Positions 7,471 to 60,021 of a stretch of 60,021 nt of DNA are shown in pieces; position 1 is the first letter of the stretch; each line of letters starts with the position of its first letter. This DNA is from Hyphochytrium catenoides (lineage: Eukaryota; Sar; Hyphochytriomycetes; Hyphochytriales; Hyphochytriaceae). The stretch lies in contig FLMG01000513.1 of assembly GCA_900088475.1 (NCBI GenBank), positions 1 to 60,021 on the forward strand. Direction: 5' to 3'. The position numbers and the translations under genes were made by a program. The notes under the pieces were generated by a model. It was not told the DNA's origin. It searched no databases and saw nothing but the letters and a program-made list of their open reading frames with translations.

Positions 7471-10400
7471 CTAAAGCTCATCGTGTACGGAACCCTCTTC
7501 ACTCTTTTCTTTTGAATGGGTAATAGTCTCTTGCTTCAAACTGTCCTCCTTGTTCCACTGTCCATTTACAGTCTCCGGCCATGATAAATGCTGTGGCGCT
7601 TGGACTCCATGAAAGAACGGCTTGAAAGAAATTTCGTGGTTTGCACCTGAGGCCGCGGTGTCCCTGAGCCACTGATTGTAAGCCGTCTGCCACCCTGCTC
7701 CGTAATCTATTGTCAGCTCCTGTCCAGTCTTTATTGGTTGCAACGCTCTGAACCCAAGATACAATCTGCCCCCTTCGAGCTTGTGTTTACCAAGGTCCAA
7801 GATCTCTTTCTGGCTCTCAGGGGTCGTCCAGAAGTACTCCAACAAGGGTTTGGAGGCATGATTGTACAGCGCGCCGTAACCGAGGGGAAACACGGCGACT
7901 TCGCTTCCTTCCTTCACAAAAGCATAATTCAGGGAGTAGTGCAGTTGCAGATCACTCTTATGAGCTAACAACACTGGAACGACCTCCACGACCTCTCCAG
8001 CCCTAAAGTCGGCTGTAGCAAACACGCCACGACCTGCGCCAGCGATCCTTGACGGCTTCAATTCCAATTGTGGGCAGCCAAATAATGGCTCAGGAGGAGT
8101 GTTACCTAGAACGGGGTGGACTCCAGGCAAGCCTCTAGCATCCGCCCAAGCATCGCCAAAAGTGACCAGGAGTTCCTGTCCCTTGAGAATCCCAGGCTTC
8201 GTTGTTTTGAACAGAACATGGGGCGACCGGACAAACGGAAGAGCAAAACCGGAGGGATAGCTCGCATTACTAGGTAAGACGTTATCATTCACGTTCGGGC
8301 TTTCAGCTTCCATTTGGTAGAGCAGGTTCGATGCATCCAGAGAAGAAGAACCATGATTGACCATGACGCAATAACCCAGCATCAGCATCTGCTCGGTATC
8401 AGAGTGGTGCAGCACGTGATCCAGGAGTTCTGTATCCGAACACGCCGCGTATGGGACGAGGATGTTCGGACAGGAGGCAACCACCTCCCCTTCTCTCAGG
8501 TCTCTTCCCGCAAAGATACCTCGGTGTGCTCCTGGGATGCTGGATAGCCCCACATACATGCTGCAGTGAGGGCTGTAGCCAGGATCGTGGACCTCCTCCT
8601 CCATCCCTACCGCATACGTAGGCCACTCCAGTTCCGCAGGCACGCCGATTGTATGATAGAAATTTGGAGAGTCACAGCTGTCTGGCCCCGCGGGGACGCA
8701 ATTCCTTAGATAGGCCCGGTAGGTTTCCCATGCTTGCTCCCAATCTTTTCCATAAGTTATCAGTAGCTCTTCGCCAGCTGCAATGTCCCTAGAAGCCACA
8801 AAGGCTAAGTGTGGCAGCTCTGGAACAGAGTGAGAGAGTTTCATCTCCTGCAGATCAAACCACTGCAATCGAAGATTGTGTCCTGATAGATCATGATTGT
8901 AGAAGGCGCCAAAGCCTGCAGTCAAGACCGTGACTGGAGAGGAGCCCTTCCTAAAGACATGATTTTCCACTGTGGATCCCTTCAGGTGCTGATAGGGTAA
9001 GATACGGGTGGGAGCGATTTCAACGATTTCTCCTGCTCTAAAGGTTCTCTTGGAAAACACTCCGCGCCCTGCTCCAGGAATCGTGGAGGTGTTAAGGTAG
9101 ACTTGAGGGTAAGCAACAGCACGAGTGGTCGGTCTCTTAGGCTTTGCTTGTGAGACTTCTTCAGTTCCCTCGGCTCCAAGGTCACGGCTTCCAAACCAGT
9201 CATCTCCGTACGAAACAAAACCTTCTTGGTCCTTCTCCAACTCTGTCGTGGCCAGCATCACATAGTCCTTCTCCACCGAGAAGGGGAGGATAAGTCCTGT
9301 AGGGACCTCTGCTCCTGCTTGCCCTACTATTGCCTCTATAAAGCTTTCTCTAGACATTACATCCGACTCTACCAGAACATGCTGCAGGGTAGGCTTCTCC
9401 TGATGATTCCAGATCATGCAGAAGCCCAATGTGATGCAGACAGAGCCTTCAGAAGCCTCCCATACATTGTCAAGGAGTACATTTTTAGACACCGCTCTAT
9501 TGGGGGCCAGGATGGTTGGGCATCTCTCTACAGGCTCCCAGACGTCATAGTTCCGGCCAAGAAAAGCTCCTCGGCCAGCTCCAGGGATCGTAGAGTCATC
9601 AAGGTATAGCGAATGGTCTATCGTTGTGGGATCTGCTTCCACACGTCGATAAACAGTGGTGCTGTTTAGCCCCTTCACTCCACTCTCCGGCCACCTCTCA
9701 AGAAGTTCTGGAGGTGGCCTAATGGGACTAAAGAATTGCGGAATATCTTTTGACAAGGATGGCCCATTCGTCGCGGAATGCGACGCCAGGTTTGCTGTGT
9801 ATAATGCCCAATCGCGTTCCCAGTCTTTGCCATAGTCCAGTGTAAGCTCTTCTCCCTCTAGAATATCCCTCAGTGCTTTGAACTCTAGATAGTATGGGCC
9901 ATCGCCAGACGAAGCGCTGCTATCGGGAGTGTCATGATCAGGATGATGGGGCGTTGAAGCCCAGCGCACCACTAGGTTGGGATTCTTGGAGTCATGGTTG
10001 TACATAGTGGCATAGCCTAGAGCCAGCAAAGCAATGCTCTGCCCCTTACCTCTAAACACGTAATTGGCAGCCAGGGACCGTGCTATATGCATGTAGGGGA
10101 CCAACAGCACTAGCACCTTCTCCACTAGCTCGCCGGCTTTTTTGGGTTGAAGGAGAAACGCTCCACGTCCCGCCCCTGGTATCTTGGACCTGCCAATCCT
10201 CACTGGAGGCTTCTGGATGCCAAGCGAGCCATCCACAGGTGTACATTTGCCTAGCTCTGTAGCTTGCTCTCCTTCCTGACATCTTGAGCCTCGATTCTCC
10301 AGGCCCGTCAAGGGCTGAAGAGCTTCGATACCTCGATCCTTTAGCCAATCGGCCCCATAGCTGACATATAGTTCCTGTCCAGGTTCTATATCACGGTTCG

Positions 10401-10935
10401 CCACAAGGCGATGGTCTCCGTTCGTTGTGAAAGGATAGGGGAAGCCCTCTGGCAGCTCCTGACTCGTGCCCGGGCCTAGAATGTCTCCGTTGAACTCAAA
10501 CGGGAGCAGTGTCTCTGTGACATTCTGCACGAAGTGTGGCAGATTCTGTTGGGGCACTGCAGGTGGCATCCATAGATTATACAATGAGTTGTCTTGCTGA
10601 TGATTGTACACAGCGCAATAGCCGAAGCTCTTTGAATCATACGCGGTGTCATACGCCCATACATAGTCCATCATAGCGTTCGGCCGCGCAGCCCCCAAGG
10701 GAATTTTCACAGTCCAGCAGCTTTCAACCACTTGTTCAGCTTTGATTGCCTCGGCCGCGAAGACGCCCCTCCCAGCACCGGGAATGTTTGACTTATCTAC
10801 GAAAAGCCCCGGGAAAATTAGACTTCCGCTAGAGGGCCCAGAAAGACTGTTTTCTTGCTCGCCGGAGCTCCATGGCAAGCAATAGAGAGTGACGCAGAGG
10901 ACTGCGAGCCCATGGAGCACCGGTGACGAGGTCAT
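7471..10935 (-). CDS. ER-lumenal protein with six tandem SET domains (signal peptide, HDEL end)
   Basis: An uninterrupted 1154-residue frame. Residues 1-26 form a signal peptide (hydrophobic LAVLCVTLYCLPW) and the last four residues are HDEL, the classical ER-retention tetrapeptide. Six SET-like domains lie at about 49-199, 250-380, 448-583, 617-739, 797-935 and 961-1089. Each opens with IPGAGRG.F (IAGAGRG or IPGAHRG in two). Each holds a G[YF]...NH motif and ends in a [EF][LF]...[YF]G..W block. They fall into two alternating types: odd domains end DW..[DS]RG-like, even domains end YG..W...W or Y. Each even domain is followed by a linker ending in W-P. So the protein is three copies of a two-SET module. 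SET domains are usually lysine methyltransferases or relatives. Even domains keep NH..(x)PN- and GEEL..DYG-like motifs best. N-glycosylation sequons are present (for example NVT, NST, NTS, NAS). Activity is not proven. Intronless, unlike most neighbours. Confidence 0.93.
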   Translation of the reverse strand: MTSSPVLHGLAVLCVTLYCLPWSSGEQENSLSGPSSGSLIFPGLFVDKSNIPGAGRGVFAAEAIKAEQVVESCWTVKIPLGAARPNAMMDYVWAYDTAYDSKSFGYCAVYNHQQDNSLYNLWMPPAVPQQNLPHFVQNVTETLLPFEFNGDILGPGTSQELPEGFPYPFTTNGDHRLVANRDIEPGQELYVSYGADWLKDRGIEALQPLTGLENRGSRCQEGEQATELGKCTPVDGSLGIQKPPVRIGRSKIPGAGRGAFLLQPKKAGELVEKVLVLLVPYMHIARSLAANYVFRGKGQSIALLALGYATMYNHDSKNPNLVVRWASTPHHPDHDTPDSSASSGDGPYYLEFKALRDILEGEELTLDYGKDWERDWALYTANLASHSATNGPSLSKDIPQFFSPIRPPPELLERWPESGVKGLNSTTVYRRVEADPTTIDHSLYLDDSTIPGAGRGAFLGRNYDVWEPVERCPTILAPNRAVSKNVLLDNVWEASEGSVCITLGFCMIWNHQEKPTLQHVLVESDVMSRESFIEAIVGQAGAEVPTGLILPFSVEKDYVMLATTELEKDQEGFVSYGDDWFGSRDLGAEGTEEVSQAKPKRPTTRAVAYPQVYLNTSTIPGAGRGVFSKRTFRAGEIVEIAPTRILPYQHLKGSTVENHVFRKGSSPVTVLTAGFGAFYNHDLSGHNLRLQWFDLQEMKLSHSVPELPHLAFVASRDIAAGEELLITYGKDWEQAWETYRAYLRNCVPAGPDSCDSPNFYHTIGVPAELEWPTYAVGMEEEVHDPGYSPHCSMYVGLSSIPGAHRGIFAGRDLREGEVVASCPNILVPYAACSDTELLDHVLHHSDTEQMLMLGYCVMVNHGSSSLDASNLLYQMEAESPNVNDNVLPSNASYPSGFALPFVRSPHVLFKTTKPGILKGQELLVTFGDAWADARGLPGVHPVLGNTPPEPLFGCPQLELKPSRIAGAGRGVFATADFRAGEVVEVVPVLLAHKSDLQLHYSLNYAFVKEGSEVAVFPLGYGALYNHASKPLLEYFWTTPESQKEILDLGKHKLEGGRLYLGFRALQPIKTGQELTIDYGAGWQTAYNQWLRDTAASGANHEISFKPFFHGVQAPQHLSWPETVNGQWNKEDSLKQETITHSKEKSEEGSVHDEL

Positions 10936-12981: not shown

Positions 12982-14665
12982 TTACAACCAGATGCCCAAG
13001 CTTCTCGATTGAGCACGGTACTCTCTTTCAACTTGTGCGATTCGTTCAGTAAGCTTGTCCATGTCCCTCAAATGTAGCGCTCGGCAACAGTCAGAAGTTG
13101 TACAAGCTCGTTTGGACGTAGACAGTAAACAAACGAGCGCCCTTCCCCGATAGTCCAGAAGTCATATCCTCGTTCTGGTACCACAACTGAGGAAGTGTAG
13201 ATCCACGAGAGCAGTGCCTTGATAACGTTAGGCGGATCCTCTTGTGAAGATAATACAGAGTTCATGTTCTCCTTCATCGGAGACTTGAACATCACATCGA
13301 TGACGTCCGATGCAGACATGAGTATCGACTTGTGCGCCTTCACGCTAGTGCCATCCTGAAGGTGGATTGTCACCATCTGAGACTTGTTCAAAGATGAGAC
13401 AGAGACACGTAGTAGCGGCCAAGGAGGCCTTGCGTCGCGGTAGCCCGTTTCGATAGAACACAGCCGTTTGGTGAGGCCAGCTTCAACAAGGACAATGAGG
13501 TCACCATCGTTGTTAAAATGGAGCTGCCTGGCACACATATTCTCGACGTAAAACATCTGCCAGCGCCTGGATGTACCGCCGTAGTGGCCGACAGAACCCA
13601 ACCAGATATACGAACTAGAGCAAGAAGTTTTAGAACTATAGACGTATTCCCAGGCGTAGAGGTAGAACGAAGAAAGGAGGCGCTGGTGCCGGGGATAGCG
13701 TGCACGACCCAAGATGCTGTTCTCAAGGTGAGAGATATCCACTAAGACCTCATATTGGCGTGTCTCGCGAACCACACGAACGCAATCATAATTATGATGC
13801 AGGTCTTTTGCTCGGATCATAGCAAGGGTGTAAGACTTCTTTCTCAGAGGATATAAGGATACACCCTCATCCCGACTCGATTCCACGATGAGCTGCCTCA
13901 TATGACCTTGTACATGTGCAATCTCACGTGTACGCTTCGTCCTCAGGTTGATCTTGATGAGATAACCGTCTAACACCCAAAGTATAGACACAGGTCTGAT
14001 CTCTTATATCCGTGGCATTCATACAGCGATAAACCATGAATTAGCTGCCCAGGTTTGCTTTGGTACACTTTATGAGCACGCCTCCCATATATACCATGTA
14101 TTTCGTAGTGATTGTCTTCAGAAAAGTGTTCAAGGACGTAGATATCGCCATTGCGGTGGTTGACTTCCATTCCCACCGGTGAACTGAGCGTTCCCCGATC
14201 CTCTCTAGCGCCAGTATCTAAATTGACCTGCCAGAGGTGGAGGAACCTCGTCTCGTCGAGTTTGATCTGCCGTTCTCCAGAAGTAGGACAGTCCCATCCG
14301 GGTGCCACTTCACGTCAGTATATCTACCATCTGGAAGGCTAAGGTACTTACGATGACCATACGCCGGCATCTGGTCTTTGCACGAACCGTTGTCTGGAAG
14401 ATGAGAGACTGAATGCAGAGTCCGCAAGCTTCAGAAAGGATCTGATCCATAGTGATAAGCAACCAGGACCAGGAGGACATACATTCGCATCATACCAGTC
14501 GATTGGGGGTTCGTTCTGATGATTATATAAAATAATACCGTAAATAATGGGAGGATTCAGAGACATTAGAGGCTCTATTCCGAATGAACTGTGTTCGCGC
14601 AAAAAGCTTGGATCCTTTCGCCGCCGAAATTTCTTCTCACATGATGTCTCTTGGACTGATGACAT
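12982..14665 (-). pseudogene. BTB/POZ-domain protein with upstream propeller-like region, three frameshifts
   Basis: BTB domains mediate dimerisation and often recruit substrates to cullin-3. On the minus strand a propeller-like region reads YLSLPDGRYTDVKWHPDG, then in a second frame LHLWQVNLDTGARED... with VGMEVNHRNGDIYVLEHF. In a third frame comes LWVLDGYLIKINLRTKRT. The third frame then holds the BTB domain: VTIHLQDGTSVKAHKSILM, DVMFKSPMKE, IKALLSWIYT and LVQLLTVAERY. It stops at 13068, just where BTB domains continue; the next frame reads LRDMDKLTERIAQVERE to a stop at 12982. The three shifts (about 14260, 13985, 13070) are all in the same direction, each equivalent to one missing base. 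No introns fit in these positions. It is either a decayed gene or base-loss errors in the assembly. The start is uncertain. Confidence 0.6.
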
Positions 14666-37200: not shown

Positions 37201-38495
37201 AAAGATTGAGTGTTAAGTCGTAAGGCGTTATCAGCGCTGGGGTTCGAACCACCGCACGAGGACCATACCTTTCCACGCAGCCCTCAAAGTGGCAGTAGTA
37301 AGAGTTTGGCTGGGGGAACAAGGCGTTGCCGGGACATAGTAAAACAGCCCAGGGCACACTTCCGTCATCTATCCTCTGCCTGAGCACTAAGAGGCGGTCA
37401 AGCTCGTCTTCATGCCCCTCTCGTACTCTCTTCAGCTTCCTGAGTTGATTTAGCTTGGGAACGAGGATGACATGCTCAGCCATCCGCGGGGACAACTGCA
37501 TAGACAAAGAGCCGGATGGTTAAAAGACGAGAAGAGCGCGCCAGCGAGATAGAAGTTAAATCCGCAGACGAGCTCGTGAAAGAGTTGAGAGGAGGGAGCA
37601 ACGTAGGGAGTGTACACCGTTCACACAGGGATCCAGGACTAGAATGGGAGGAGAATAGGCGCTCCAGGGCACTATCCGCATCAAGTACTAAAGCACCACT
37701 CTGGAGAAGTGACATTCTATCCCCAAAATTACCTGGTTCAGCAAGTGCCTAGCGCGAGACTCAGAAAGGTCCGTCGGTACACCAGACTTCACAAAAAGCG
37801 AGAGCGCTTGGAGAGAAGAGATTTTTGGAGAAGTAGCTGCATAGTCCCGCTGTTCCACGCTGGTGAGCTTCTCATTGAGCTTGAAGAGGTAGTAACCATA
37901 GCAAAGAGTGAACAGATAGAAGAAAGCAATGGGAAACCACAGCACTTTGGATTGGCGTGGGATGTCCCGAATGGTTGTCACAGCAAAACTCCCCATATCG
38001 CTGTCTTTCTTATGAGACTGCAGGATGTACACAGGCATCAGAAGTATGGATCCCAGAAGGCTTGTCACGCTTAGAAGACGAAAAGTGTACTCCTGGAACA
38101 CCAGGTAAAAGGCACCTTCAGTCCCAGATCTACGCTCTACCTCCATGCTTCTACATAGCACAGTGTCAGAGATGTCAGCGGGGGGAACAACTTCATGTTG
38201 GGCATAAAGAAAATGCTTGCCTCACGTCCAGCTTTCTAAAGTTCTGAAGCTTCTCTCTGAGCTTATGACCCGGCATGCCAGGAGTTCCTCTGCCAAAGCA
38301 GAATAGCTGCCTCCTCCCACTACGGGAGGTGATCAAAATTGTCAGAGTGACCACCAAGATCAGAACATCCAACAGGAAGATACTCAAAGTTCCTCGCCAG
38401 CCATGGGCTTCTGCTATTTGGACTTCGCGCGAACGGCCATGCCAGGGATCAGACATATTCCCCTGAATCGCAAGCCCAGCGAGTTGATCCTCCAT
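34256..38495 (-). CDS. OSCA/CSC1/TMEM63-family membrane channel, many exons
   Basis: This family forms osmotic- or mechano-gated cation channels of plasma and endomembranes. Start taken as ATG 38495 (MEDQLAGLAIQGNMSDPW). Exons in order: first membrane segment (TLSIFLLDVLILVVTLTIL); a second exon with two segments (RLLSVTSLLGSILLMPVYIL and VLWFPIAFFYLFTLCYGYYL); the cytosolic domain (VILVPKLNQLRKLKRVREGH.., then YAGDRRIDNEQ..); the hallmark VAPDPHDIQWSSMSY followed by IFIAIVLILFTSPTAV; then ANAALIQ-type segments, VLSTIGGVFFSSSGIFYINY, YLGMQYAMFIRYIVPAAVLL, VIAVVTVFSTMIPLIVLAGT, and PKVPGRGLVGRTALHGMLV. The APDP-D--W and membrane order match the family. A last exon reading NFFARQTSARTPLWADS ends at 34256. 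Small exons in 34.4-35.1 kb are approximate. Confidence 0.8.
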
Positions 38496-43600: not shown

Positions 43601-45331
43601 CTCCTTGCTTCTCTAACGTCGGGCGGTCTCCGGGCGATACAGCTTGGCCGCCATGAACAGCACGCCGTGGCCATGTCAGCTAGAAGAGGGGAAATAGCGG
43701 GTCATATGTACCAAGTGGCCGCGCTAGAGGCTGTACCAACGGCCTGGCTAGCCCTAGCCCACCGCTATAGTAAGGGACAAGGAGTGGTGAAAGACCCCGA
43801 AGTAGCTGCACATTACTATTACTTGGCAGCACTTGAGTCTCAGCGTTTCTATCATACCACGGGCAAACAACCCCGTCATGAGATGCACCAGCTCTCTGAA
43901 AGCACGGAAGAAACCATAGAGATTGGACAGAAGGGCGATGATGATGAGCAAATCCAGTTCCTGACTCTACAGGCAGAACATGGGGACGTAGGAGCCATCC
44001 TCACACTAGGAGATTGGTACTACTGGGGCTCTCACGGCCTTCCTAGGGACCATGGGCGTGCCGCTCAGTACTTTTCAAGAGCCGCACAGCTGCAGAGCGA
44101 CGTTGGAAGGAGCTGCTTGGCTGGCATGTACCGGAGAGGAGAGGGCGTGGAGAGAGACGATTTGAAGGCAAAGGAACTATGGGAAGCAGCTGTCAATTCG
44201 TCGGATAACGTAAGAGGTTTGAACGGGCTTGGGCATCTATACTTCTACGGCGTGGAAGGGGTGATCGAGCAGAACCAAACTAAGGCCCTAGAGTACTTCC
44301 AGAGGGCAGCAGACAAGGGAGAGGAAGCGGACAGTATGTTTAACACGGCCACTTGCTACCAGCAAGGCATAGGAACAGCAAAGAACCTCACCGTCGCCCT
44401 ACATTACTTCAAGAGGGCAGCTGCTGAGTTTGCGCACTTTGACTCTGTGTTGGAGCTTGGAAAGATGTACCTCTTCGGCATCGGCGTCCAGCGTTCTCTG
44501 TCTGCAGCAACAGTCTATTTAAAGCACGCTGCAGAGCAGGGAGAGTGGGGCGGGCTCCTGAGGGAAGGCTTCGACTACTATATCAAGAGGAATATCAACG
44601 CTGCGGTCCTTCGGTATATAGAGGCAGCAGAGTACGGATACACGGTAGCAGAGGGCAATGTCGCCTTTCTAGCGAACAAGAAGATCTCTGATCCTTCTAC
44701 TCTCTTTCAACAGAAGAGTAGAGGGAGAGACGCCGAAGCGGTTGACAGCGATGAGAGTAACGGAGAAAAGCTTGGCCGAGATCGAGAAGGATCAAAGCGC
44801 CAGAGTGAGCATCTGGCATTCAACTACTTGCTGAAAGCTGCAAACAACGGAGACACAGAGGCACTTATCCCGCTGGGAGACATATTTTACTATGGGAAAG
44901 CAGGCGTTGCCATCGACTATGCACGCGCTCTCTGGTGGTACAGCCGCGCCAGTGCTGCTGGCGTGTCTCAAGGAGCCTTCTACGTTGCCTCAATGTACGA
45001 AAGCGGTCAAGGAGTCGAAAAATCGCTTAATCGAGCTGTGCGGTACTATCAGCGCAGTAGAGAGCTGGATGGGTCACTTCCGAATCGTCTCGCTGTGCAG
45101 CTTGCATTGGTCAGGATGGAATTCTGTGAGACCCTGGAAGTCCAGACCGGATGGAAGTGCTTTGGCCAGGATGGGGCTAAGGGAAGTGGTCCTCGCCCAC
45201 AAAGTAATGGAAGAGGAGGAGAGACAACAGACGTGGACAGTGAAACAGTAGGCATCCTGACACTGACGGCTGTGTTGATGACGCTGCTCTACCTCCGAGG
45301 ACGTATGGGTGTCAGGCACCAGGAAGGCTAG
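40633..45331 (+). CDS. LamG plus Sel1-repeat membrane protein, Hrd3/SEL1L type
   Basis: SEL1L/Hrd3 is the ER-lumenal adaptor of the Hrd1 ubiquitin ligase in ER-associated degradation. ATG 40633 gives a signal peptide (IIWLALALVALGAVSAV). Exons follow at about 41464-41837, 42000-42190, 42300-42470, 42663-42987, 43156-43329 and 43440-45331. The middle forms a concanavalin/LamG-like fold: WSMAFWVFLLDEQQR, GRWTHLAFTFANLSER, YEVRLFVDGRLDI and GDLWIGGSPRWDWGIKGFIAN. The long last exon holds many Sel1 repeats (A-Y-ARILLGKTRG, AHRYSKGQGVVKDPEVAAHYY, AGMYRRGEGVERDDLKAKEL, and others). A C-terminal membrane segment (GILTLTAVLMTLLYLRG) and a short basic tail follow. The LamG/Sel1/TM order suits an Hrd3-like role; partner not in window. 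Confidence 0.85.
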
Positions 45332-54134: not shown

Positions 54135-55268
54135 CACTGATGCTTACTATACGACCTCGCCTATCCTGAGCCATTCTCTCTACGTCTGGCATCGTGAGTT
54201 CTCTTTTGTACAATCAACGTAACAGTGACCCTTCAACGTGCCAATGCCCCTTGTACTATCGCGTTCCCAGTAGGGTTCGCTTTCTTATCAGAGCTTTGGA
54301 TGTATCTCTAGGAACGATTCAAGTCTTGCTGTTCTTCCATTGCTTCTTCTAATGCTTGAGCGAGCGGCGCAGTGCTCCTACTAGGCAGCGAGAGCGCTCT
54401 CAAAGCCTTCCACGATGGTTTTATAATAAAAATAACACAAAGAGGCGTGCGTCCAAAGACAAAGATCGCGCATGAAGCACCGCAGTGTTCTCAACAGAGA
54501 GAGAGAGAGTCAAACCGTTCAGAACTGCTTAAAATTAACCAGCGGAGGCCCCGCCGCCCGCCAAGAAGCATCGCCAGAGCTCTCAAGAGTCAACAGAAAG
54601 GCAGCCAGAGCGCGCTGGTGAGGATGAGAAGCTGATGATCTGATGATTACCTTGACCAGCGGGGAGCCGTTACGAGGCTAGCCGTTATAAGAAGCTTCCA
54701 GAGGTGAGAGACAGAGTGAATAATTTAGTTGCTGGAATTGATCTCGAGGTGCGAGACAGAATAGCTCATGTAGAGACAGAGTGGGAGAAGGGGAGGAGGG
54801 AGAGAGATACCGCGCCTGTCAGAAAGAGATGCAGAATTCGCATAATTCTTTTTCCTCAAATCTGCAGATCGGCTGCACTTGGCATGGGCGCTTGCGGGCA
54901 GCAGCACCGCGTCGCCTCTTAATGCATATCTCTATCTCTGTTGCTCCTGATCCTCAGTCCTTGCTTGGCATCTGCGCTCTCCTCCCTCGCTACTGCTGCA
55001 GAACACGCGGTGTAGACTCTCCTCTGCTCTTGGGTTGACATTTCTCATCTAGTGTTGGTCTCTGTTCCTTTTCCTACCCGCTACCTAGCGATCCTTAGAA
55101 CTAGGATGTACTATGCGGAGGAAGCAGAGCTTGAGTCTTAGTAGTGCTTAGCGCCACAATCCAGCCGAAGGGGAAAGAGAAGGTCGCTCTTAACCCTTTC
55201 TCGACTTTAAGCTTTACTCCTCCTTCCCTCTCCGTGACCTCTGACATGCGCAAACCCTGACTTTGAAA
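54135..55268. other. Intergenic region
   Basis: Between two plus-strand genes. Short frames at 54372-54635 and 54704-54922 have no motif. Presumed promoter of the SPT2-fusion gene. Confidence 0.4.
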
Positions 55269-55471
55269 ATGGACACTCCGGTTGCCTTGTCAACCCGTCT
55301 TCATCGCCTTGTGAAGACGAAGGCAAAGGCGGATGAGCTAGTTCCCGTCTTGGAGATGCTGCAGAAGGCGCCAGTAACTATTCAGATACTGAAGGACACT
55401 CAAGTCGGCAGGTGAGGAAGAAGCGAGAAAGGGAGAGAAATGAGGAAGAGAAAGTTGTGCGTGAGTGTGTC

Positions 55472-55506
<35 letters not shown>

Positions 55507-58500
55507 CGTGACTTGCTTGACATGAAGAGCAAAAGAGACCTCAGAACGAAAGAGACGTACACGGGGAAGAGAGCTAAACGATAGATAAGCGAGGAGATGG
55601 AGTCAAAGAGAGTGAGAGTGTGTCGATAGAGAAGGACGTCTACCTGGATAATAACGCTTGCTTTGGGGCGGCAGGGTGGTAAATGGACTTCGTGGGCACG
55701 ATAGCGAGAGTGTCAAGGGTCTGGCAAGTAAGTTAGTCAAGCAATGGAGAGACCTGGTGCCTCGCAAGCCTTCCAATAACTCAGGTATGAGGTCAAACTA
55801 TGCGCGCACTCTCCCCCCCTCTCTCTCTTCCCCTCTCTCTCTCTCTCTCTTACTCTCCCTCTCTTGCTTTTTTGTCCAGTCAGTCCGTTCGATGCCACTT
55901 CGATGTCAGTTCTGGCTCTACCACTTGGCCTTATAGCTCACGCTTCTAGTCACTCTCTCTCTGTTTCTTTTCTTCCTTTCCTCTCTGACCTTGCGCTTGT
56001 CACTCTCTCTCTATGGCTATATAGAGATACCTAGTGTCCTAAGACCTGGCTAACCAACTGCCTTACATTCTTCTGCAGCTCCTGGACCCAGGTCCAACGG
56101 TGAGAATGACGATAGAAAAGCCCAGGTTGCAGAGAAGATCAAGGCGCGGTATGAAGAGGCCAGGCAGCACAGAAAGCAGAACTCATTAAAGGTGCGACGC
56201 GTCTTCGCTGTCTTCCTACGTGTCCCTAATGTTCCCTATCACCTGTTGTCCTCCTTGTCCCTTAGAACCTTGCCTCTCTGGCCATGACATCTCCTCACCT
56301 AACAGAGTGCTCTCCTTCTCCTCTCCCTCCACTTCTCTTTCTCTCTAATTTTCTATTTGCTTTGCTGCCCTTCCTCGCATTCGTCTCTCACTCTCTTTCG
56401 TCCCTATTCTCCTTGGCTCCTTTTCCATTTGGCCTTGCTGCAGGTGGTCAACAACCTTGTCGATCAAGGGGATAGGAAAAGAAAGAGACCAGACTCAAAG
56501 GGTCTTACTAAAGGAACACCACCGGTAGCTATGCAATTTTCTTAGCTTCCGCTTGCTCGTATCTCTGATCAACTCGCTTGTTTCTTCTTCTGATCTGCTC
56601 ATATGCCTCCTTGTCTGCTCTCCTATCTTGGCTATTCTACTCTTCGTCGTGCTTTTCCTCTCACATGTGACCGCACGCACTTGCCCAGGTGAGGAGTCCC
56701 GCAGTCTCTCCCGCAAAAGGCGGTGGGGCCTACTCCTCAATGAAAGCTTCCATTCCTGTTAGAAGATCCCAAACGTAAGTCAATATTCTCCTAGGCCGTC
56801 CTTCCTCTAGGCCTGTGCGTCTCTTCCTGCGGATCTGCGGCCTTAGTCCTTCGTCCTTCTCTCTTTTCCTCCAATGACTTAGTGGAATCGAAGACAGTGA
56901 TGAAGAGCTGCGAAGAAAATATTTGGAGAGACGAAAGAAACTAGCAGAAAGAGCTAAAAAATTAGAGAATGGCTTTACAAAGTTTTCCAATCCAAGCGGC
57001 CCCTCTCACCCGAGCAAGTCCCTAGTGACGACTAGCAAGGACAAGAAAGAGAAAGGAAAGGAGAAAGGAGCAGAAAGAGCCAAGGCTTCTCCACCTCAGC
57101 CAACCGCCACCGTGAATCGCGGATTTCAGCGCATTGTCTATAGAGATAGCTCAGGAAAGGCCATAGTGCCTGGGACTGAGGGAAGCGTCCCTTCTCTCTC
57201 TCCTTCCTCCTCCGCTGGCAAAAAGGCTCCACCAGGTGCCATCACTAGAGTTAAGGACAAGCCCACGACACAGAAAGGAAATGGCGTGCCATCGTCTTTA
57301 GGTCCTCTTTCTACGGCGGCAGACTCAAAAGGCGCACAGGAAGTTAAGAAGTGGCTACAAGGTAAGGCATAAATCAAGCGGGAAAGAAAGCTTCCCAAAA
57401 GAGGAAAGGCCTTGGGCAAGACTCTCTGTTTCTCCTCTTCCCTGGTCATCTGATGAAGGAGCCATACAGGTTTACTCTTTTGCTTTTGATCTCGCTCGCT
57501 TTACCATCCTTCTTTCTGCTACACTCTGTCATTGACTGACACCCTTCCATTCTCACCTTCTCCTCTCTCTCTCTCTTCTCCTTTTACGTCCACGATAGGT
57601 TTGACAGGAGATATGAGTCGCTATGCGAGCACTATAATTGAGCAAGGCTTCGACAGCTTGGAGCTATTGAAGACTCTACAGAAGGAAGATCTAGAGAGAA
57701 TCGTGCCAAAGATCGCGCACAATAGAATAATATACGAAGCGGTCCGGCAGCTGCAAAAAGGAGGAAGGTAAGCAAAGAAAGGAACAGGCAAAGAGCCCAC
57801 GACGCTCGAAAGACAACGAGAGGAGTTGAAGCGAAAGGAAGGCATGAGTGAATCTACATGGAGAAAAAGCCTGCAGAGTAGAAGAGTTTTCTCTTTGAAA
57901 CCCCGCTCTGCACTTTCCTGGCTAATTATCCATCTCCTCACAGCAAAAAGCACTCTGTTGGGATGGCTGACAGCGGACGACGGAGATCTGAAAGAGCAGG
58001 AGGAGGAGGCGGTGGAGCGTACAGCCGGCGCTACGATGAGGAAGAGGAAGATAGCGAAGACTCATTCATTGTGGATGATGAGGATGAGTTATCGGGTGAA
58101 GACTATTATAGGTGAGCAAATCTTGAGGGCAGGAAACCAAGGAATGGGAGAAGGGTCAGTCAGGGCGGCACAGTCGCTCTCAGCGAACTCAGAGGCACAG
58201 CTGTGTACACGTGAAGCACAGAAAAAGGGAAGGGAGAGAGAGATAGAGAAAGAAGAGAGAGAGAAGACAAAGATAGAGGACCAAGCGAGAAGATGTCAGC
58301 TGGTAAAAATTGATGCACGCCGATTATCTACCGTCGGTGTTAAAAGCCCAGGCAGAGACATCTACGGCTCGTCAGGGCCGCTTGGGCGGACAGGAGCCAG
58401 AGAAGGGTAACAGACAGCGAAGAGCTCAACACGAGAAAGTGAAGAGGAACAACGGGAGAACGGGTTGGAGACAGAGTTTCCTAGCTAATGCTTGCTCTTC

Positions 58501-58745
58501 CTCTTCATAGCCGCAACTACAGCTCAGAGATCCAAAAGCTCTTTGGTCCAAGAGGTCGGTCCCGCTACGCGAACGACTATTCGGATGACAGCGCCAGTGA
58601 TATGGAGGCAACCTTCGAGGACATCCAAAGAGAAGAAAGGAGGAGGTAAAGCTTCTCCAGTCTTTCCTCGATCTTGACTGCTTTATATCTCCTCTGATTA
58701 GCCAACTGAAGTCCCTTATTCCAGGCTTCCTCTTTCTGCAATCAC

Positions 58746-58778
<33 letters not shown>

Positions 58779-59096
58779 TCGCTCTCTCCTCTCTCTCTTT
58801 CTTGCTCTCTCCTCCTTCCATTCTGCATTCATTAGTCCTATCTTGCCATCTTTGTGCACTGAGTGTCTTCAGGACTATTGCTTGGCTTATGAGCAGACTA
58901 TCCGTTCTCCCACAACTCAATGGTTGATCATGCCCTTTCCTTCTCCTGTCTTTCCTTCCTGAACTACTCGCCGCTGACAATCTCTTTTCTCGTGTCCGGC
59001 AGCGCTCGCATCGGAAAGGCCGAGGATGACGCAGAGCTAGAAAGAGAGTTGGCGGAGTTGGAGGCGAAGAAGCGGAAGAAGAAAAAGAAAGGCTGA
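55269..59096 (+). CDS. TFIIS N-terminal domain, SAM domain and SPT2 chaperone domain in one protein
   Basis: ATG 55269. Exons 1-2 read LSTRLHRLVKTKAKADELVP, VLEMLQKAPVTIQILKDTQV, GLRGHDSESVKGLASKLVKQ, W..LV: a TFIIS N-terminal (LW/TND) helical domain, which docks on elongation factors. After basic exons (GIEDSDEELRRKYLERRKKL, a Lys-rich region) comes VKKWLQGLTGDMSRYASTII, FDSLELLKTLQKEDLERIVP, a SAM domain with L.G....YA...E....S...L..L..EDL. The last three exons give DEEEEDSEDSFIVDDEDELS, RNYSSEIQKLFGPRGRSRYA, then DDSASDMEATFEDIQREERR and SARIGKAEDDAELERELAEL, the SPT2 C-terminal signature that binds H3-H4. The stop is at 59096 after a polylysine tail; AATAAA at 59118-59123. Likely nuclear. 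Confidence 0.85.
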
Positions 59097-59453
59097 AGCT
59101 TGACCGACCTCTTCTATAATAAAGAATTCACATGCTGTCAGAAGACAGCCAACTGTAACTCAAACTCTCTCTCTCTCTCCTCTCTTTTGCTCTTTGGTTT
59201 CTTCTCTCTACTTCTCTCTATTCTGCCGATCACCCTTTCTTCCTTCAGTCTTGCTCTGCAGAGGCCCACCAAACATTTTCCGTCCAAGTGGACAGCGTCA
59301 GCTGCCTGACGTGATGAAGACGCTATATATTAATCTCTCTCTCTCTGTCTCTCTCTCTCTCTCTGTGCTATGTCCCATTCTTCTATCAAGTGCTGGCGTT
59401 GTGTTCAGATGATGCAGTGGTCATCATCCTGTCAACCCTCTAGTTCGGGCTTT

Positions 59454-59495
<42 letters not shown>

Positions 59496-59695
59496 CCTTC
59501 CGACCTCTTTCTTTCGCGTCTTGTTTGTCCTATTCGGTAGTTTGTCATGGATTCCTTCCTCTCCACCTTCTCGTCATGATGGCGGGCACCAAGTGATTGG
59601 CAACAACAAACAGAATGGTTGTCTTGGGGAGTAACAGGGGAGAGAGTAGAGAGAGAGAGAAAGGAAACAGAGTAGTTTAAAGACACAGAGAAAGG

Positions 59696-59726
<31 letters not shown>

Positions 59727-59987
59727 AGTTCCAAGCCCCAGAAGAACAGCCAATCCTTATTCACCCGAAAGTAACCTTGAATATGAAAGGTTTCGCTCTG
59801 CCACGCTCTGTCGCGGTACTACCATAACCGATAGCATGGTTTCAGTACGGCTCATTCGGAAATATTCATATTCTTCATGAAGGCAAAAAGGCAAGGTTCC
59901 TTAACACTTGAAAATAGGGAGCGTAGAAAAGTACCGAAAGAGAGAAACAGAAGAGAGAAAGAGAGGAGAGACAGGGTGTGTGTAAGT

Positions 59988-60021
<34 letters not shown>
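59097..60021. repeat. CT/GA microsatellite-rich right end
   Basis: CT runs at about 59331-59363 and 59458-59492, GA runs at 59640-59720 and 59940-60021. No gene seen. Confidence 0.8.

Follow-up and report, generated by a model that had tools for sequence, protein, structure and literature searches.

Six SET domains of two types

The stretch of DNA analysed here, called the window, comprises 60,021 nucleotides of Hyphochytrium catenoides (assembly GCA_900088475.1, contig FLMG01000513.1, positions 1 to 60,021) and carries on its minus strand, at 7471..10935, a single-exon gene for a protein (P0001) in which six SET domains lie between a signal-peptide-like N-terminus and a C-terminal HDEL, a layout which points to a resident of the lumen of the endoplasmic reticulum (ER). 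The frame opens with an ATG, runs unbroken for 1154 residues to its stop codon and is preceded by in-frame stops shortly upstream of the ATG. An earlier, model-made reading of the letters (the original prediction) had given the right coordinates for this uninterrupted frame and had left its strand unstated.

The whole protein matches the Pfam SET model (PF00856) with 143.3 bits for a cut-off of 22.4 and an E value of 4.2e-42, and it also matches, though weakly, PRDM2_PR, a related model (28.2 bits, cut-off 27). Taken singly, SET1 (10321..10809, 31.2 bits), SET2 (9796..10206, 32.3 bits), SET4 (8716..9105, 43.5 bits) and SET6 (7666..8070, 45.5 bits), all on the minus strand like the two that follow, exceed the cut-off; SET5 (8122..8562) stays below it with 18.1 bits, and SET3 (9172..9612), searched alone, gives no SET match up to an E value of 1. 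Each segment was also scored with a leave-one-out hidden Markov model (HMM) built on other domains of its type; the segment itself and its partner in the second gene described below were excluded, and the remaining domains of both proteins were included. With these models all six segments score between 88 and 116 bits (100.8, 116.4, 93, 115, 88 and 108.1 bits for SET1 to SET6) and the reversed segments between -1.9 and 0.9. The six SET-like domains proposed from the letters are thus each found again by profile, and the count of six SET domains, two of them diverged, is correct.

The domains alternate between two types and form three A-B dyads: type A (SET1, SET3 and SET5) ends in [YF]GxxW..xR and type B (SET2, SET4 and SET6) in YGxxW[EQ]xx[WY]. 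The profiles of the two types match each other with an hhalign probability of 99.6. Among solved chains, the type-B profile matches vSET (1n3j) at 9e-12 and PFL0690c at 6e-10, and the type-A profile PFL0690c at 8.6e-10 and vSET at 4.4e-7. A tree was made of 39 domains, drawn from 11 proteins picked by hand out of 62 (P0001, the product of the second gene and 60 relatives) and assigned to A or B in advance according to their position. A single branch (support 99/97) separates its 20 A rows from its 19 B rows without exception; the assignment of SET3 draws on its HMM score and on this tree. The GxG, NH and YG motifs are all present in SET1, SET2, SET3, SET4 and SET6, and the three type-B domains keep them as GxGRG, NH and G[EQ]ELxxxYG, in which we take the tyrosine of the YG motif to be the catalytic tyrosine of the SET family. 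SET5 is motif-degenerate, with GAHRG for GAGRG and FG for YG.

A second gene and probable residence in the endoplasmic reticulum

A search of the assembly (42.5 Mb in 1105 contigs) with the SET profile and with P0001 itself detected a single further six-SET gene, which lies on contig C431, and with P0001 as query there was no match beyond the window and this contig at E values up to 0.001. The C431 gene has one GT-AG intron and its spliced product of 1377 residues is colinear with P0001 across the six domains. The two proteins share 46% identity over 1147 aligned codons, and only 49 of 184 four-fold sites match (27%, near the random quarter, with a base composition that differs strongly between the genes and is uncorrected), so that the protein looks as if it were held by purifying selection. 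In the domain tree, every P0001 domain pairs with the C431 domain of the same number (support 92/80 to 100/100), which implies that the six-unit array is older than the split of the two genes. Either way, whether as a paralogue or as a gene of a second species, the C431 gene is a separate copy; RPB2-type matches on four contigs of the assembly bear on the question of a second species. The contig itself (locus L021) has an extreme share of CT/GA runs (0.139 of the bases of L021), with repeats which extend into the coding sequence.

Comparing the two copies also tells which parts of the protein are kept. SET2, SET4 and SET6 of either protein retain GxGRG, NH and the tyrosine of the YG motif, and SET5 presents GAHRG and FG in both, a conserved loss of two motif residues. 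The best kept of all residues are the cysteines of the mature protein (13 of 14, against 46% overall), followed by tryptophan (19 of 22) and phenylalanine (35 of 43). Such a retention of cysteines fits an oxidising compartment, and two cysteines common to the type-A domains of both proteins could pair in an oxidising lumen.

Both ends of P0001 recur in the second copy. The signal-peptide-like segment (residues 1-25, 10861..10935, minus strand), recognised from sequence and hydropathy, reads MTSSPVLHGLAVLCVTLYCLPWSSG/EQE, with a cleavage site guessed after ...PWSSG and a best 12-residue hydropathy of 2.33. The HDEL (7474..7485, minus strand) closes the exact C-terminus GSVHDEL-stop, and its counterpart in the C431 protein, which also has a hydrophobic N-terminal stretch, is SVLHDEL-stop. 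The C-terminal HDEL of the original prediction is therefore exact and repeated, and of the features whose conservation it wished to see checked, a hydrophobic start, the domain number and HDEL all recur in the C431 gene. The sequons that the original prediction had listed as a feature were discarded as evidence of glycosylation: four are observed for 4.96 expected by shuffling, a count at chance level and hence uninformative.

The retention system itself can be recognised in the same assembly. A BiP gene on contig C695 encodes a protein with a signal-like start and EDEHDEL at its end, and ER_lumen_recept, the ERD2-type HDEL receptor, has matches on two contigs; taking these contigs and the window as one organism, the retention code used there is therefore very likely HDEL. 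Together with the layout shared by the two copies, these observations support well the residence of P0001 in the ER lumen, which we regard as very probable.

The surroundings of the gene can be described briefly. Next to the SET gene, on the opposite strand, lies a fragment of a catalytic domain of the MPAB/Lcp oxygenase type (PF09995, 6027-6533, plus strand); farther away lie a BTB/POZ-domain frame (13068-13991, minus strand), a fragment of an RSN1_TM-type membrane protein (37688-38161, minus strand, 40 bits for a cut-off of 27) and a Sel1-repeat frame with six stretches (43667-45331, plus strand). The neighbouring frames of the window had no match in the pieces of C431 that were compared (about 38 of 87 kb, partly masked). 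Milder elevations of CT/GA runs were seen at 55-60 kb of the window (0.054, positions 55001-60021) and at locus L023 (0.048).

Relatives outside the assembly

Two homology searches, which scored 8,000 and 7,998 candidates, provided 60 relatives, whose rows are not independent. Among the 54 that start with methionine, a hydropathy of at least 1.9 is reached within the first 45 residues by 34, against 4 of 54 within residues 101-145. An [ED]L ending occurs in 11 of 61 proteins (P0001 and the 60 relatives), for 0.7 expected from the internal rate. Four relatives (P0002, P0007, P0008 and P0009) resemble P0001 in being alternating A-B arrays; they have four or five domains instead of six and no HDEL end (P0002 ends in RSEL), and P0002 and P0008 are maybe incomplete at the N-terminus. 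The six domains of P0001 thus make the longest array found here, not the sole one, with the proviso that the domains of relatives are counted only roughly, long inserts having broken some of them up (the C431 protein was scored as eight pieces for six domains). Of the features that the original prediction wished to see followed in orthologues, signal-like starts are frequent among these wider relatives, and the array relatives have fewer SET domains and lack HDEL. P0001 would belong to a wider family of SET-dyad proteins, diatom proteins included, many of which have a signal-like start.

Nine of the 60 relatives (P0003, P0004, P0005, P0006, P0012, P0026, P0038, P0044 and P0045) carry an extra domain C-terminal to the SET part, found with the pattern HxD, 45-80 residues, [YF]HxT. 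When the nine are aligned, a downstream arginine and further residues are also shared; the constancy of HxD...H is partly by construction, since the proteins were chosen by that pattern, which does not apply to the arginine and the other residues. HxD...H...R resembles the motif pattern of oxygenases that use iron and 2-oxoglutarate, which makes the extra domain a lead by motif only. Profile searches against Pfam and PDB with five of the nine (P0004, P0026 and P0044 also as whole proteins) left the oxygenase unconfirmed, and this identity was set aside for want of profile support; an NCBIfam search gave nothing, and the HxD...H pattern was not found in five other long relatives. A hydrophobic start of at least 1.8 is present in seven of the nine, P0006 and P0044 being the exceptions, and the organism is named for one (P0026, Bacillariaceae).

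A viral scan gave 17 loci, of which two were opened and rejected as orthologues, their frames being short and single-SET. One has two adjoining single-SET frames (L050:2998-3788) and the other a frame at L048:2947-3411; both adjoin a frame that is helicase-like by eye.

As for the host, profile searches of the assembly gave no match for a light-harvesting protein and none for a silicon transporter, absences which are provisional because the assembly may be incomplete; judged by them, a diatom that has given up photosynthesis would be an improbable host. The BiP groups with stramenopile-named rows (support 100/98) in a tree whose 24 other rows were picked from among the best hits of this BiP; ten of these rows are unnamed, and no named one is a diatom or an alveolate. 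The two absences suggest, and do not prove, that the SET family extends beyond diatoms and silica.

Possible function and comparison with known systems

The reading which we favour and consider fairly probable is that P0001 is a soluble ER-lumenal array of three SET dyads, the B domains of which methylate lysines of secretory cargo. The N-terminal signal peptide would direct the entry of the protein into the ER and the HDEL/ERD2 system its retrieval; SET2, SET4 and SET6 would be the catalytic domains and would act on lysine side chains of proteins of the secretory pathway; the type-A domains would hold the B domains or the substrate in position, and SET5 would be a conserved pseudo-domain. Three putative catalytic units per chain would suit a multi-site or repetitive, lysine-rich cargo. 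The ER-lumenal methyltransferase array imagined in the original prediction is in this way supported for its residence and layout, through the second gene, the HDEL of BiP and the ERD2-type receptor; for a putative methyltransferase activity the support comes from the motifs retained in the three type-B domains.

Several observations weigh against this reading. A hydropathy of at least 2.3 within the first 45 residues is reached by 14 of the 130 ATG frames of at least 60 residues in the window, and the hydrophobic N-terminus of P0001 would by itself be poor evidence for a signal peptide; the peptide proposed at the outset draws its weight from the recurrence of such a start, judged by hydropathy and composition, in the C431 gene. 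Among P0001, the C431 protein and the relatives, HDEL is present in the first two only, and 50 of the 61 proteins counted above have an ending other than [ED]L. The endings found in relatives (RSEL, QSEL, NDEL, RTDL, REDL and RTEL) are, as we take it, outside the strict ER retention signal, and some of the proteins which bear them may be incomplete or near-duplicates. A few SET proteins with a different layout (P0058-P0061) are also among the 60 relatives. On the catalytic side, SET3 of the C431 protein has SAGRG in place of GAGRG, the NH motif is missing from type-A domains of P0003, P0009, P0010, P0016 and P0019, and P0008 has NN instead of NH in both of its type-B domains. Finally, the proposed reaction would require a supply of S-adenosylmethionine (AdoMet) inside the lumen.

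The losses of NH in A domains and its replacement in the B domains of P0008 show that the family tolerates inactive SET domains, and they are among the arguments for a lumenal scaffold, or a chaperone that binds lysine, devoid of catalysis, whose SET folds would bind lysine-rich cargo with no methylation. This explanation would also account for SET5, which lacks two motif residues in both copies, and for SET3, which is too diverged for Pfam. We nevertheless judge it unlikely, as SET2, SET4 and SET6 keep the three motifs in both genes despite four-fold sites near randomness; the repurposed SET scaffold of the original prediction fits SET5 and perhaps the other type-A domains. That the protein is not an ER protein at all, its N- and C-terminal tags being accidents of a wrong start, a retrocopy or a decaying gene, seems highly improbable. 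The window copy is intronless and the C431 gene has an intron, and hydrophobic starts are not rare in the window; against this stand the intact frame, the kept cysteines and the repetition of both ends in a second gene that has diverged strongly.

The remaining alternative concerns the substrate, P0001 being in that case a lumenal enzyme that N-methylates polyamines or some other small amine instead of protein lysine. Part of a diatom transcriptome study links SET-domain genes with the methylation of putrescine and long-chain polyamines (PMC11554505), and a passage of a 2012 review mentions aminopropyltransferases which in some cases occur in fusion with a domain of the histone N-methyltransferase kind, a domain that may N-methylate long-chain polyamines (PMC3820600). 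Among solved chains, however, the best matches of the A and B profiles are protein-lysine SET enzymes, the Pfam search of P0001 gave no aminopropyltransferase domain, and with no silicon-transporter match in the assembly no silica-linked need for polyamines is evident, for which reasons we hold this alternative to be quite improbable.

SET enzymes are usually described as methylating lysines in the cytosol and the nucleus. P0001 is a compact and testable candidate for protein methylation in the ER lumen, it raises the question of the route by which AdoMet enters this compartment and, standing in an assembly that gave no light-harvesting or silicon-transporter match, it suggests a chemistry not tied to silica. 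A broader scenario, which we advance only tentatively and find doubtful as it stands, is that the secreted SET-dyad family is a general ER lysine-methylation machinery of stramenopiles, older than silica and independent of it, which diatoms recruited for their silaffins. Diatom silaffins contain di- and trimethyl-lysine and trimethyl-hydroxylysine, according to passages of two articles (PMC4557024, PMC3820600), the second of which, the 2012 review, describes the multistep enzymatic machinery as only starting to be elucidated. If this scenario were true, the relatives with the extra domain could methylate and hydroxylate lysine on one chain, leading to the trimethyl-hydroxylysine of diatom walls.

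Compared with solved SET proteins, P0001 is distinguished by its number of domains. The best solved relative of the type-B profile, vSET, the H3K27 methyltransferase of the chlorella virus PBCV-1, is a single chain of 119 residues, and that of the type-A profile, the Plasmodium protein PFL0690c (PDB 4rz0), was solved as a single domain of 146 residues whose chain end, YGHSW, resembles the YGxxW of P0001. KMT5A/SETD8, to which P0001 and type B also have a SET match, is a nuclear histone enzyme with a single SET domain. Like the original prediction, which knew of no described protein with this layout, we found no description of a six-domain HDEL SET protein in the open-licence literature searched, where, among the papers listed, titles and the beginnings of abstracts mentioned no tandem, multiple, two- or six-SET array.

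Among the closest known systems is a family of SET proteins of diatoms. Its members are said to be putatively ER-targeted. It was published in 2020 as 'diatom-specific' (Nemoto et al. 2020, as cited in part of PMC11554505, and listed among the references of PMC11151724), and the premise of the original prediction that SET methyltransferases are only cytosolic or nuclear had overlooked it. Three diatom-named relatives, P0019 (Nitzschia), P0021 (Cyclotella) and P0026 (Bacillariaceae), match the SET profile of the window and would fit with that family; P0019, a candidate member of the published set, shares the A-B dyad, having been placed in the domain tree with P0001. In contrast to the diatom family, P0001 has six SET domains, a canonical HDEL and a host assembly with no light-harvesting or silicon-transporter match. 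P0001 thus appears to extend a recently recognised SET family to six domains, to a canonical HDEL and, judged by what the assembly contains, to an organism other than a silica-forming alga.

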